A stretch of DNA of 20,553 nucleotides from a virus. The notes below the pieces were generated by a model, which did not search any database, was not told where the DNA came from, and saw nothing but the letters and a program-made list of their open reading frames with translations. Shown here piece after piece: positions 10,929-15,344 of the stretch. The translations under genes were made by a program, and so were the position numbers. The number at the start of each line of letters is the position of its first letter. Position 1 is the first letter of the stretch. The stretch lies in the IMG/VR virus record IMGVR_UViG_3300048033_001219, positions 1 through 20,553 of that record, one strand, 5' to 3'.

Positions 10929-11690
10929 TTAACTTTTTTGATTTATTTCATTTTGCTGTATTTCGCTAGCTGCAGCTTGTATTATTTGAGGATCTCTAAT
11001 TATAATACCTGAATATTGTAGTATTCTTAAAATAACTTCTACTTGTTCATTGTTGTTTATCTCAAAGTTTTGAGAGTTGTTAGGATCATAAACATATTGA
11101 CCTAAATTTCCAGTAGAAAAAGCCCACTTTACATTAAGAGGTTTTCTAACAAAAGAAGCTTCTATACCAGAGGTAAGTTCAATAGGTCTTACAAATAGTT
11201 TATTATTTTCGTATAAGTATGTAGGAAATGATTTTGTTGATTTTGTAAGTGGAGACGCCTGTATGTTGTAAAATTCATTACGCTGTAATCTTTGTAATTC
11301 TACTTGATCACCCGCTGCAGGTGTGTATGTAACTGTTCCAAGTCTATAAAAAGCTACTTCATCATTTCCAGGATTATCATTATAAACAACGGTAGCTCCG
11401 CTTGTTGCGTCTGTGGTTGGTAAATTAAAATGATTAGTACTAAAACCGCAAGTTCCAATAGCTTTAAAAATAGATATATTTTCATCTATATTAATTTGTC
11501 TATCAGAATAATCATAATCTGCTTGTGGCACTCGTAATTGCTGGTTTAAATCATCAAAGTACTGTTCAAATATATCTAATTGAACCTGTGTAGCTGTTTT
11601 GTTAAACTCATCAGGTGTTATATAACCACGCTGTTCTTTGTTGAGTATAAGTAAAACGGTTTGATATACAGTGTTTACGTTTATTGCCAT
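10929..11690 (-). CDS. Tail adaptor/ring protein candidate
   Basis: This 253-residue protein begins MAINVNTVYQTVLLILNKEQ, with helices over about residues 1-55 containing GYITPDEFNKTATQVQLDIF. Beta-rich sequence follows, then the pair KSFPTYLYENNKLFVRPIEL (around 154-173), and a C-terminal helix that ends Asn/Gln-rich. Helix-beta-helix layout, size and position between capsid and large tail genes fit a ring protein that joins portal to tail. crAss-like phages stack several such rings, which would explain two adaptor-type genes in a row here. The start is 20 bases downstream of a GC-rich hairpin in the gap behind the 275-residue gene. I recognise no catalytic residues. It could alternatively be a head-completion protein. 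Confidence 0.55.
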   Translation of the reverse strand: MAINVNTVYQTVLLILNKEQRGYITPDEFNKTATQVQLDIFEQYFDDLNQQLRVPQADYDYSDRQINIDENISIFKAIGTCGFSTNHFNLPTTDATSGATVVYNDNPGNDEVAFYRLGTVTYTPAAGDQVELQRLQRNEFYNIQASPLTKSTKSFPTYLYENNKLFVRPIELTSGIEASFVRKPLNVKWAFSTGNLGQYVYDPNNSQNFEINNNEQVEVILRILQYSGIIIRDPQIIQAAASEIQQNEINQKS

Positions 11691-11709
11691 TGATATTTTT
11701 ATTTATATA

Positions 11710-11730
11710 CAGGGCGCATTACACGCCCTG
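11710..11730 (-). promoter_or_regulatory. GC-rich hairpin between the 275- and 253-residue genes
   Basis: On the minus strand the arms are CAGGGCG and CGCCCTG, a perfect 7-base-pair stem, around the 7-base loop TGTAATG. It lies 15 bases after the stop of the upstream gene and 20 bases before the next start. What follows is A-rich with few T residues (TATATAAATAAAAATATC), so it is a poor intrinsic terminator. It is better read as an RNA processing, stability or attenuation structure, or a weak terminator. Its loop repeats the loop of the hairpin after the capsid gene. Confidence 0.65.
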
Positions 11731-11745
11731 ATATATTATTACACG

Positions 11746-12573
11746 TTAAAGAAGTTTTTTCTCTATTGATTTGTAAACTTCTACGCCTTCGTCTGTTTTA
11801 AACCAAGCAGCCATTGCTGAATACGGGTTTTCATCAAACGGTACGTTCATTAGTTTTCTTCCATTACTACCCCAAGTAAATGTTCTTTGATCTTGTGAAA
11901 GATTAATAACGCCAGTTTCAGAAGCTACGATAGCTACATTTCTTAACTGTACATTCTCGTCATTAGCAAGTTCTATAAACAGTTGTGGATTGTTTTTAGC
12001 AAACAATAATAAGTCACGTTTAAGTTCTTTAGAACTCATCTGAGATACTTTAGAACCAACCTCAACACGCATAATAGCCTCTGCTTGATCTATATCCATA
12101 GATTTAGCTGCATTAAGTGCGTCTATTTGTAGTTCAATAGTATCAAGTTCGTCTCCTGCTTCTTCAACAGCGCTAAATTCTTGATACAATTTACCTTTCA
12201 AAGGGTGGTATAATGAAAGTAGTTTTTGTAGGTTTTGTTGTTGCTTAGGTACGGTTAACGATCCATCTCTAAACATAATATGACCTAAAGTTACTTCACC
12301 TTTTTGCTCATCAACAAGTGGTGAGTCTTGGTTTGTTGCATATCTAATTTCTCTTTGCTTACCTGTAGCTTCGTCAAAATATAGTAATGCATGTTTTTTA
12401 GTGTGTCTACCTGGAATTTTTAAAGTCAAAGGAGATTTATTACCTGTTAAATAATAAATACGCTCTTTAATTTCCCACTCAGGTTTACTTGGTTTTTGTT
12501 CTACAGTTTTAGCCTTAACTGTTTTTTGAGGTGCAACCTCAGTTGTTTCTACTGCTTTAGCTTCTTTAGCCAT
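11746..12573 (-). CDS. Conserved-looking unknown head-region protein following the capsid gene
   Basis: I do not recognise the function of this 275-residue protein. The first 30 residues are Lys/Ala/Glu/Thr-rich and probably disordered. Next comes a compact beta region (IYYLTGNKSPLTLKIPGRHT at about 39-58, then LLYFDEATGKQREIRYATNQ). A charged helical half follows, with LQKLLSLYHPLKGKLYQEF, IDALNAAKSMDIDQAEAIM and SSKELKRDLLLFAKNNPQLF. The end is PFDENPYSAMAAWFKTDEGV plus a short helix. There is no signal peptide, membrane helix or enzyme motif. It sits directly behind the major capsid gene, separated by 78 bases containing a strong hairpin, and a second hairpin follows it, so it may be expressed at its own level. 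Capsid decoration, head completion or internal scaffold roles are all possible; I rank none above the others. Confidence 0.4.
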   Translation of the reverse strand: MAKEAKAVETTEVAPQKTVKAKTVEQKPSKPEWEIKERIYYLTGNKSPLTLKIPGRHTKKHALLYFDEATGKQREIRYATNQDSPLVDEQKGEVTLGHIMFRDGSLTVPKQQQNLQKLLSLYHPLKGKLYQEFSAVEEAGDELDTIELQIDALNAAKSMDIDQAEAIMRVEVGSKVSQMSSKELKRDLLLFAKNNPQLFIELANDENVQLRNVAIVASETGVINLSQDQRTFTWGSNGRKLMNVPFDENPYSAMAAWFKTDEGVEVYKSIEKKLL

Positions 12574-12602
12574 GATATAATAAAATTAAATAATTAATAA
12601 AG

Positions 12603-12643
12603 GTAATAGTTACCCCTGAAATTACATCAGGGGTAAGTATTAC
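12603..12643 (-). terminator. Strong hairpin directly after the major capsid gene
   Basis: On the minus strand the inner arms are TTACCCCTGA and TCAGGGGTAA, a perfect 10-base-pair stem, around the loop TGTAATT. After a C-C mismatch the stem continues with TAATA/TATTA and a closing G-C pair. It begins 8 bases past the capsid stop codon. The following sequence on that strand is T-rich but broken (CTTTATTAATTATTTAATTT), so partial rho-independent termination is plausible. This would give more capsid mRNA than downstream tail mRNA. Protection of the capsid mRNA 3' end is an alternative role. Confidence 0.7.
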
Positions 12644-12651
12644 TTAAGTGA

Positions 12652-14109
12652 TTACACTCCTTTGAATAGTACAAAGTTGTTAGCACCTTGAGTTACCAAA
12701 CATCTTTCAGATAGGAAGTTTACTTCCATTGCATCTAGAGTTGAGGTAAAAGCACCACCGGCAGAACCAGTCAACCAAGACTTCATGCGACGATCGTCAC
12801 TCTGTGAAGCTCTGTATCGTACGTGCAAGAATGGACGACGGATGTTAGATCCTAAAATCTGATCGTAAACTGTACTTGTTCCAGCAGGAACTAATACACC
12901 TTCGATAGAATTTACTCCAGTAACACCACCACGAGTTGAAGCATCATTTAGATATTTCCAGTCAGTCTTATAGAAATCGTAAGAACCACGACGGAATCCA
13001 GAGAATCCTAGGTTCAATGCCATTTCCTCAGAATTTTCGAAAAGACCAAATGCAGTACCACCAGCAGAACCAGCAGAAATCGCAGATAGCATATCATCAA
13101 AATCTAGTGAAGTTTGACGTTGTAAAAACAACATGTTTTCTTCAATAGCACCTTGGGTATCTAGGTTTTTAAGAATTGCATCAAATTCGTCTAGTCCAGC
13201 AGCAGCAGTAAATCCTACTTCTACATTACCACGTTCTTGAATAGCAGCAAATAAACCTTGAGTACCAGGAACAAGACCTGCACCTACACCAGCTCCAGCG
13301 CCAATTGCACTTTCCTCACCTTCAATCAAAGCCATTTCTAGGTAATCTTCAAAACGCAAGCGAGTTTCAGATTCAGCCTTTAAATACCATAGATATCCAG
13401 AAGTACCGTCTTCAGTAGCAACTTCTACCCAACCAATCTGAGCCATATCAGAACCATTAACTACATACTGATCTCTAATAATAATTGGAGAGTTTGAGTA
13501 TTGAGTTAGTTGAGGAGTGATAGAATTTCTAGGTTGAGTTCCAGCAGCAACACTACCGCCGCTTACCATGCTAGTTCCTTTTGCATATGCAGAACCATAT
13601 ACAAATACTTTGATACTACCAGAAGTAAGTCCAGCACCACCAACAGTTCCGTCCCAGTTAGAAACAGTAATATCACCGTTAGTACCACCAACAACTGCTT
13701 GTACAGAAGCCGTAACAATACCTTTTTGCTCAGCACCAGTCACAGTGTCCAAAATTACTACTGTATCATTTACAGAAATAACATTTTGTTTCGTAGCTGC
13801 ACCAGCTGCGGGAGCTACTCGGATAACACCACCACCAGGTAGTGTACAATCGTCATAAGCAATATGCAAACGGTTTTGTTCAGACCAAATAACTTGATCA
13901 GATGTCATTGGCATTTCTGCGCCAACCATGCGTAAGAATCCAGATAGTGTACGGTTACCGTAACGCTCTACTTCTTGTTCATAAATTTCAGGTAAATACT
14001 GTTGTGCAAAATCCGCACCAGCACCTGTGTTAAATTGTAGGTAGTTTGTAGCCAGCAACTGTTGAGTTGAAGTTGGCACCAAAGAACCAAATTGTGGAGT
14101 TAAAGCCAT
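12652..14109 (-). CDS. Major capsid protein (HK97 fold, crAss-like type)
   Basis: This 485-residue protein is the shell subunit that assembles around the scaffold and portal. The N-terminal part contains FAQQYLPEIYEQEVERYGNR, then SGFLRMVGAEMPMTSDQVIW and NRLHIAYDD, a block that resembles capsid proteins of crAss-like and related marine phages. A Gly/Thr/Val-rich beta insertion (about residues 95-200) suggests a surface domain. The middle has the long helix-type segment ESETRLRFEDYLEMALIEGE, and the C-terminal part ends DAMEVNFLSERCLVTQGANN. There is no prohead protease gene next to it and no obvious N-terminal delta domain. The DNA is visibly GC-richer than the flanking genes (52-55% in the segments 12781-12840 and 13801-13860), as expected for codon choice in a very highly expressed gene. 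It starts 14 bases after the scaffold gene with an A/T-only leader (ACAAAAATTATAATT). Confidence 0.9.
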   Translation of the reverse strand: MALTPQFGSLVPTSTQQLLATNYLQFNTGAGADFAQQYLPEIYEQEVERYGNRTLSGFLRMVGAEMPMTSDQVIWSEQNRLHIAYDDCTLPGGGVIRVAPAAGAATKQNVISVNDTVVILDTVTGAEQKGIVTASVQAVVGGTNGDITVSNWDGTVGGAGLTSGSIKVFVYGSAYAKGTSMVSGGSVAAGTQPRNSITPQLTQYSNSPIIIRDQYVVNGSDMAQIGWVEVATEDGTSGYLWYLKAESETRLRFEDYLEMALIEGEESAIGAGAGVGAGLVPGTQGLFAAIQERGNVEVGFTAAAGLDEFDAILKNLDTQGAIEENMLFLQRQTSLDFDDMLSAISAGSAGGTAFGLFENSEEMALNLGFSGFRRGSYDFYKTDWKYLNDASTRGGVTGVNSIEGVLVPAGTSTVYDQILGSNIRRPFLHVRYRASQSDDRRMKSWLTGSAGGAFTSTLDAMEVNFLSERCLVTQGANNFVLFKGV

Positions 14110-15311: not shown

Positions 15312-15344
15312 AATATAATAGTATAAAATTAAAGGATTTTATTT

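Follow-up and report, generated by a model that had tools for sequence, protein, structure and literature searches.

In a 20.5-kilobase (kb) IMG/VR fragment of a virus genome (record IMGVR_UViG_3300048033_001219; its 20,553 nucleotides are called the window below), two GC-rich hairpins flank the 275-residue gene that follows the major capsid protein gene. The hairpins are conserved throughout the phages that group with the window (the window clade), their stems covary, they are selected as RNA of the coding strand, and their loops turn over. They lie where sister phages carry transcription terminators; in the window clade the promoter box has been lost at both places and the T-tract has been lost at one and degraded at the other. 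The present function of the hairpins is likely to be exerted at the mRNA level. By analogy with Escherichia coli (E. coli), we lean towards the view that these former terminator-promoter boundaries may now be U-less mRNA hairpins, acting as 3′ decay barriers in one polycistronic message.

Two hairpins flank the gene after the capsid gene

The genes of the window are on the minus strand and code for a terminase, a portal protein, a scaffold-like protein, the major capsid protein, the 275-residue protein, two virion structural proteins and large tail proteins, the labels "scaffold" and "tail" being given by gene position. The gap before the 275-residue gene holds the capsid-side hairpin and the gap after it the tail-side hairpin (Table 1). 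Both had been reported in a sequence-only reading of the window. Their coordinates hold and both are beyond chance, with folding z-scores of -4.72 (capsid side) and -4.32 (tail side) and none of 200 dinucleotide shuffles equally stable. It was also correctly noticed that no other gene junction in the window has such a structure and that the two loops have the hexamer TGTAAT in common. This hexamer is at chance level in the window (27 occurrences, 24.9 expected).

On the capsid side, the stem ends about 29 nucleotides (nt) ahead of the ATG of the 275-residue gene. On the tail side, it ends about 15 nt ahead of the ATG of the next gene, within an A-rich leader. Both gaps have the GC-rich hairpin of an intrinsic terminator and neither has its T-tract, the longest T-run just past the capsid-side stem being 3 in the window. 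An Rfam search gave no match for the window and none for eight relative loci.

Conservation in relatives

Two IMG/VR scans yielded 160 relatives. The common pipeline held 379 loci, with 54 left out for having no following gene of at least 150 residues; 229 have a tail-side gap. Loci were drawn from lists of the best 80 matches, which over-represents close relatives in all counts given here and makes the rows non-independent. Groups were assigned by the best tblastn match among six capsid proteins.

Of the unique gaps of the window clade, 113 of 115 on the capsid side and 100 of 101 on the tail side have kept the hairpin. When 90-nt segments centred on the junctions were scanned, the z-score was below -2 in 110 of 112 unique cases on the capsid side and in 100 of 107 on the tail side. 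The same scan gave 1/75, 6/129, 0/103, 0/51 and 0/1 for the other junctions; three in-gene controls were not silent (9/147, 38/146 and 23/145). The hairpin gaps are the sole long gaps of the module (medians of 78 and 62 nt), and the remaining junctions with more than one locus have median lengths of 29, 15, 4 and 6 nt.

Six relative contigs of 50-65 kb were scanned for strong hairpins in gaps of at least 35 nt, most other module junctions being a few to about 35 nt long. The capsid-side gap has such a hairpin in all six and the tail-side gap in four (not in G006 and G009). Further hairpins were found at one convergent gene pair in five contigs and, weaker, at one gap of G001. The convergent-junction hairpin (G001, G002, G003, G005, G009) has a T-rich tail (6 or 7 of 9), and its stem GGGGATCTCAAACGAGGTCCCC is near-identical in four of the five contigs.

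Several variants occur. Some stems split by a loop insert were missed by the energy cut-off (L041, L074); in these capsid-side gaps about 22 nt (AAAAAGCTTAATGCTCAAAAA in L074) have been inserted into the loop and the stem is retained. In L080, the capsid-side gap has a TTACCC-type hairpin in two tandem copies. A further inverted repeat, TGACATTAGCC...GGCTATTGTCA, is conserved between the capsid-side hairpin and the leader of the 275-residue gene in L007, L015, L016, L017, L021, L050, L116, L118, L122, L126, L130, L132, L136, L151, L154, L156 and L161, with paired changes such as TGACAATAGCC/GGCTAATGTCA in L130. Gaps above 160 nt were excluded from the loop listing given below. Among them are the gaps of L015 and L078, where a second gene pair of the 253/407 type has apparently been inserted after the tail-side hairpin (G005:37347-39184), and that of L038 (L038:5318-5540), where a highly structured insert of about 210 nt (minimum free energy -71.9 kcal/mol) replaces or joins the tail-side hairpin. 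The L038 insert, which is possibly a structured RNA, has an Rfam match at chance level only and no blastn match among phage records.

Selection on pairing and on the coding-strand RNA

When 3′ halves were swapped between relatives, the mean folding energy went from -20.0 to -11.8 kcal/mol on the capsid side and from -18.7 to -10.6 kcal/mol on the tail side, and none of the 20 swaps per side came near the real energy. Alignment A1 contains all 40 listed sequences with a TTACCC-type stem (the window taking the place of L082). Its covariation score is 0.134, compared to 0.066 after shuffling, and none of 500 shuffles reached the real score. Two other measures were unexceptional in A1: there are 4 pairs changed on both sides, compared to 2.8 (reached in 101 of 500 shuffles), and further pair types were matched in 125 of 500. 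On the tail side, compensatory changes were found at all 7 predicted pairs in alignment A2, for which 39 of the 92 listed gaps were picked.

Folds of the coding strand contain 157 G-U pairs among 1651 pairs on the capsid side and 177 among 1417 on the tail side. The corresponding values for folds of the complement are 68/1577 and 28/1232 (Fisher p 5e-9 and 6e-25, pairs being treated as independent). The selected molecule is therefore the coding-strand transcript. Selection on the transcribed-strand RNA is a characteristic of decay barriers, and it is seen here in both the G-U asymmetry and the covariation. That the inverted repeats act as DNA, as a cruciform or a repressor palindrome, is hardly credible: the complement folds well too, as such an explanation would have it, but G-U pairs are tolerated far more on one strand, UUCG and GNRA loops occur, and the sequence of the arms is not conserved.

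Loop turnover

Of 95 distinct stems, 30 have a UUCG loop, far more than have any other, and TGTAAT is found on 9, several of which are near-copies. In the closest relatives, which have 83-98% identity to the window in the next protein, the capsid-side loops are TGTAATT, TTAATC, TTCG, TTAATT and GAACT, and the tail-side loop is constant (GTAAT). A loop conserved on varying stems, as proposed from the window, was not found. The situation is the reverse, with loops that change freely and pairing that is kept; relatives do have unrelated loops, an outcome named beforehand as speaking against the proposal, while the hairpins themselves are near-universal. The idea of a recognised RNA element rather than a plain terminator survives in part: the hairpins are a selected RNA and no ordinary intrinsic terminators in this clade, but recognition of the loop has to be given up.

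A protein or an anti-termination factor that binds the TGTAAT loop is very improbable. The 9 stems do include two unrelated tail-side stem types, and the hexamer is in both loops of the window. Against this stand the UUCG loops and the many unrelated ones, the differences among the window's close relatives, and the chance frequency of TGTAAT. As the main feature, loop recognition was rejected on the 95 distinct stems.

UNCG loops are present on 16 of 38 distinct capsid-side stems in the window clade, compared to 7 of 58 in Manatee-like phages (p 0.001). Loops of the UNCG and GNRA types point to selection on how strongly the hairpin folds. TGTAAT may belong to the same class, as it would hold the GNRA tetraloop GUAA closed by U-U.

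Origin from terminators

The window's named relatives, with capsid identities of 22-49%, are Flavobacterium phages elemoA-F, Maribacter phage Panino, a Manatee Spring phage and Cellulophaga phages. A hairpin followed by a T-rich run is found at both junctions in elemoA/F, phi38:1, Calle_3 and the Manatee phage, and at the capsid-side junction in Panino and phi18:3/phi19:3. The orthologous junctions are occupied by terminators in elemo, Callevirus, Manatee, Panino and Baltivirus phages, in several cases with TAnnTTTG just downstream. This motif is the -7 box of the primary sigma factor in Flavobacterium psychrophilum and Bacteroides, according to the available text of two papers (PMC9723704, PMC7366714).

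Three additional scans and the common pipeline were used to compare unique gaps of the window clade with those of Manatee-like, Panino-like and elemo-like phages. On the tail side, a T-run of at least 6 is present in 59/65 Manatee-like, 8/12 Panino-like and 7/8 elemo-like gaps and in 0/101 gaps of the window clade; for TAnnTTTG, the values are 61/65, 10/12, 8/8 and 0/101. On the capsid side, the T-run is present in 61/107, 4/14, 7/8 and 22/115 gaps, respectively, and TAnnTTTG in 12/107, 4/14, 7/8 and 0/115. The window clade has, at neither junction, a terminator-promoter boundary with TAnnTTTG downstream. The T content of the 8 nt past the stem is at local background (4.34 compared to 4.44 on the capsid side, 2.12 compared to 1.85 on the tail side). 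The hairpins are U-less intercistronic hairpins throughout on the tail side, and 93 of 115 capsid-side gaps are without a T-run of 6.

Genome-wide, TAnnTTTG is likewise scarce ahead of genes in the clade: it occurs 9 times in 10,775 nt upstream of genes in six clade contigs and 22 times in 5,077 nt in three named relatives, with 3 and 2 occurrences for the reversed pattern and 10 and 7 for the complement. Among 10 proteins from two relatives' contigs (a minority of their proteins), Pfam revealed no phage RNA polymerase or sigma factor by which the loss of the host promoter box could be explained.

In a tree of 79 tips chosen from 194, the window clade is separated from all other tips by a branch with a support of 100 in the Shimodaira-Hasegawa-like approximate likelihood ratio test (SH-aLRT). 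Outgroups with a tail-side gap are mostly in the terminator state, which makes loss within the window clade the simpler assumption. From these comparisons, descent of the hairpins from terminators is well supported.

The hairpins may still be terminators, although weak ones: with only a poor T-stretch behind the hairpin, some of the polymerases would be released, and transcription would drop first past the capsid gene and a second time past the 275-residue gene. We regard this as possible, if on balance rather unlikely. True terminators are present at these junctions in sister phages, and in the window clade T-runs of at least 5 occur in 38 and of at least 6 in 22 of 115 capsid-side gaps. Moreover, the capsid-side terminator of Manatee-like phages is rarely followed by TAnnTTTG (12/107), which makes leaky termination plausible there. 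However, the T content past the stem does not exceed background, the tail-side stem runs into an A-rich leader with no T-run of at least 6 in 101 gaps, and the clade's own hairpins at convergent genes do have T-rich tails.

Stems are longer in the window clade, with medians of 16 (capsid side) and 14.5 (tail side) pairs compared to 12 and 13 in Manatee-like phages. Such long stems, together with an extended outer helix and the restriction to two chosen junctions, could also be expected for processing sites of an endonuclease of the RNase III type, which would divide the late transcript into single-gene RNAs, as happens in T7. RNase III substrates are usually quoted at about 20 base pairs, and the stems are below this; a conserved internal loop or sequence determinant was not seen in A1 or A2. 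We consider processing of this kind improbable.

A decay barrier as the proposed function

For the preferred reading, 3′ decay barriers, the following course of events is proposed. In sister phages, a terminator would close the transcript at each junction, and a host-type TAnnTTTG promoter would restart transcription at the tail-side junction. The window clade has lost the promoter boxes from both gaps and the T-tract from the tail side, that of the capsid side having been degraded. A strong terminator with no host-type promoter box behind it would leave the tail genes silent. The polymerase would then read scaffold gene, capsid gene, 275-residue gene and tail genes as a single message, in which the hairpins would stay selected for pairing strength as boundaries of mRNA segments. 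An endonuclease may cut in the less protected downstream RNA, after which the hairpins would block 3′-to-5′ exonucleases. RNA of the capsid segment, followed by that of the 275-residue gene, would in this way stay in excess over the tail segment, and some weak termination may persist at the capsid-side hairpin.

With the T-tract gone and the stem kept, longer and, on the capsid side, more often UNCG-capped, the hairpins would suit the role of a 3′ decay barrier in a polycistronic message. Operons of E. coli use U-less hairpins in this role, and stabilised upstream genes have their 3′ ends at them (available text of PMC5927463), and the galE mRNA is described as protected by a hairpin of 8 base pairs with a 4-nt loop (available text of PMC11925234).

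Several points weigh against this reading. A T-run of at least 6 persists in 22 of 115 capsid-side gaps, with 22 changes of this trait over the 79-tip tree, so that termination there is conceivable. With all 194 tips, FastTree gives the node of the window clade a support of 0.265. The excess of UNCG loops is not significant on the tail side (5/45 compared to 1/41, p 0.21). The analogy is that of E. coli, and decay-barrier action would have to be transferable to this phage. The host would be of Bacteroidetes type judging from the relatives alone.

Phage contigs of the same type (L399, L400, L403, L411 and others) are found in genome bins labelled Pelagibacter, Aliivibrio, Woesearchaeota and Aenigmatarchaeota, and also Flavobacteriaceae; the labels other than Flavobacteriaceae are probably binning errors.

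A third hairpin at the capsid stop codon

The heptamer GTGTAAT had been noticed at or one base after the stop codons of the two genes upstream of the hairpins, and these positions were confirmed: one copy (12651-12657) lies on the capsid stop codon and another (11738-11744) one base past the stop of the 275-residue gene. It occurs 10 times in the window compared to 4.6 expected, and 1 of 100 shuffles reached 10. The copy at the capsid stop is there because a covarying hairpin surrounds the stop codon, and the copy at the stop of the 275-residue gene is part of a conserved post-stop stretch (Table 1).

At least 4 Watson-Crick pairs around the capsid stop were found in 29 of 76 distinct sequences of the window clade, compared to a permutation mean of 8.9 and a maximum of 18 in 1000, in a test which ignores kinship. 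The same test gave 5/90 for Manatee-like phages (3.2 permuted) and 0/21 for others (1.0). The complementary arms vary (GAATC/GATTC, GAGTG/CACTC, GGATTA/TAATCC, AAGGTA/TACCTT, GAGCA/TGCTC), and 18 different arm-loop-arm combinations pair at this position. The stop-codon hairpin is a clade-specific small covarying element.

The stop-codon hairpin could share a function with the two larger hairpins if these insulate translation. The stem would then fill the space between a terminating and an initiating ribosome, keep the AT-rich start unpaired and halt drifting ribosomes. Such a function would be compatible with a decay barrier and with weak termination alike. The distance from stem to ATG has an interquartile range of 14-16 nt on the tail side and 27-30 nt on the capsid side, and the stop-codon hairpin covaries. 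Initiation in Flavobacterium favours unpaired, A-rich starts, as stated in the available text of PMC6847099. On the other hand, the other junctions of the operon lack hairpins and the tail-side hairpin of Manatee-like phages is a median of 29 nt away, so we judge insulation to be unlikely.

Neighbouring genes and the AT-rich leader

The fold predicted for the 275-residue protein (mean predicted local distance difference test score, pLDDT, of 81.8) has ten viral matches at E ≤0.001, and all named ones are uncharacterised proteins. Uncharacterised proteins of similar fold occur in Tenacibaculum phage Gundel_1, Cellulophaga phage phi14:2 and crAss-like viruses. There is no PDB fold match at E 0.001, no PDB sequence match for the protein, and no Pfam family above the cut-off (searched with the first member).

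The leader that abuts the start codon of the 275-residue gene, TATTTAATT[AT]TATTATAT[TC]ATG, has exactly two copies in each of the six relative contigs (up to 2 mismatches in the last 19 positions), ahead of the scaffold gene and ahead of the 275-residue gene. In the window, copies abutting start codons are found at 12575-12592 (275-residue gene), 15313-15330 (scaffold-like gene) and 1238-1255 (gene at the low-coordinate end). Its role may be that of a promoter or, as it abuts the start codon, that of a translation leader.

Table 1. Hairpins, genes and associated elements in the window.
Feature	Position	Strand	Remarks
Capsid-side hairpin, gap between major capsid protein gene and 275-residue gene	12603..12643	-	10-base-pair core (12610-12619/12627-12636) with a C-C mismatch and a further six pairs; loop 5′-TGTAATT
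Tail-side hairpin, gap between 275-residue gene and 253-residue gene	11705..11736	-	7-base-pair core 11710-11730; loop TGTAATG; AT-rich outer stem with bulged T
Small stop-codon hairpin GAGUG-UAAU-CACUU	12646..12659	-	Capsid stop codon 12652-12654 in loop; predicted fold
Stop codon and conserved post-stop stretch	11738..11748	-	Window: TAACGTGTAAT; post-stop consensus and alignment A2
AT-rich leader abutting start codon of 275-residue gene	12574..12595	-	Conserved among relatives
Major capsid protein gene	12652..14109	-	phrog_13704; "capsid" by position and by relatives' annotation as virion structural protein
275-residue gene	11746..12573	-	phrog_34748; predicted fold like uncharacterised proteins of Bacteroidetes and crAss-like phages
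253-residue virion structural gene	10929..11690	-	phrog_14543; first gene past tail-side hairpin

Relation to known systems and significance

With the orthologous terminators and terminator-promoter boundaries of Elemovirus, Callevirus, Manatee-type, Panino and Baltivirus phages, the window clade shares the junctions, the flanking genes and a GC-rich hairpin in the gap. The window clade differs in having no T-tract on the tail side, mostly none on the capsid side, and TAnnTTTG at neither. Very stable cUUCGg hairpins occur between phage genes in T4 (intercistronic CUUCGG), but here two fixed junctions only are concerned and other loops are allowed. In T7, RNase III processing hairpins lie between phage genes; the stems described here are shorter and show no sign of a conserved cleavage site. 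Known 3′ decay-barrier hairpins (malE-malF, puf operon, galE, menBCE) are likewise stable U-less hairpins between or near cistrons, with the upstream gene in excess (available text of PMC5927463 and PMC11925234), whereas here the setting is a phage late operon of marine Bacteroidetes-type viruses and the decay effect a proposed one. In a limited open-access literature (titles and beginnings of abstracts), no paper on these hairpins, the capsid stop-codon hairpin or the transcript ends of these phages was found.

The two boundaries form a natural before-and-after series, with real terminators in sister phages and T-tract-free hairpins in the window clade. This series makes a shift from transcriptional to mRNA-level dosage control testable in reporters. 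It also calls for caution: junction hairpins in AT-rich metagenomic phage contigs should not be taken as terminators or protein sites until T-tract, loop and relatives have been checked. The stop-codon hairpin adds a small new covarying element. Taken together, and only tentatively, a marine Bacteroidetes-type lineage may have swapped terminator and host promoter for extra-stable U-less hairpins which set the dosage of capsid to tail by decay, with a stop-codon hairpin that would govern ribosomes or nucleases past the capsid gene.

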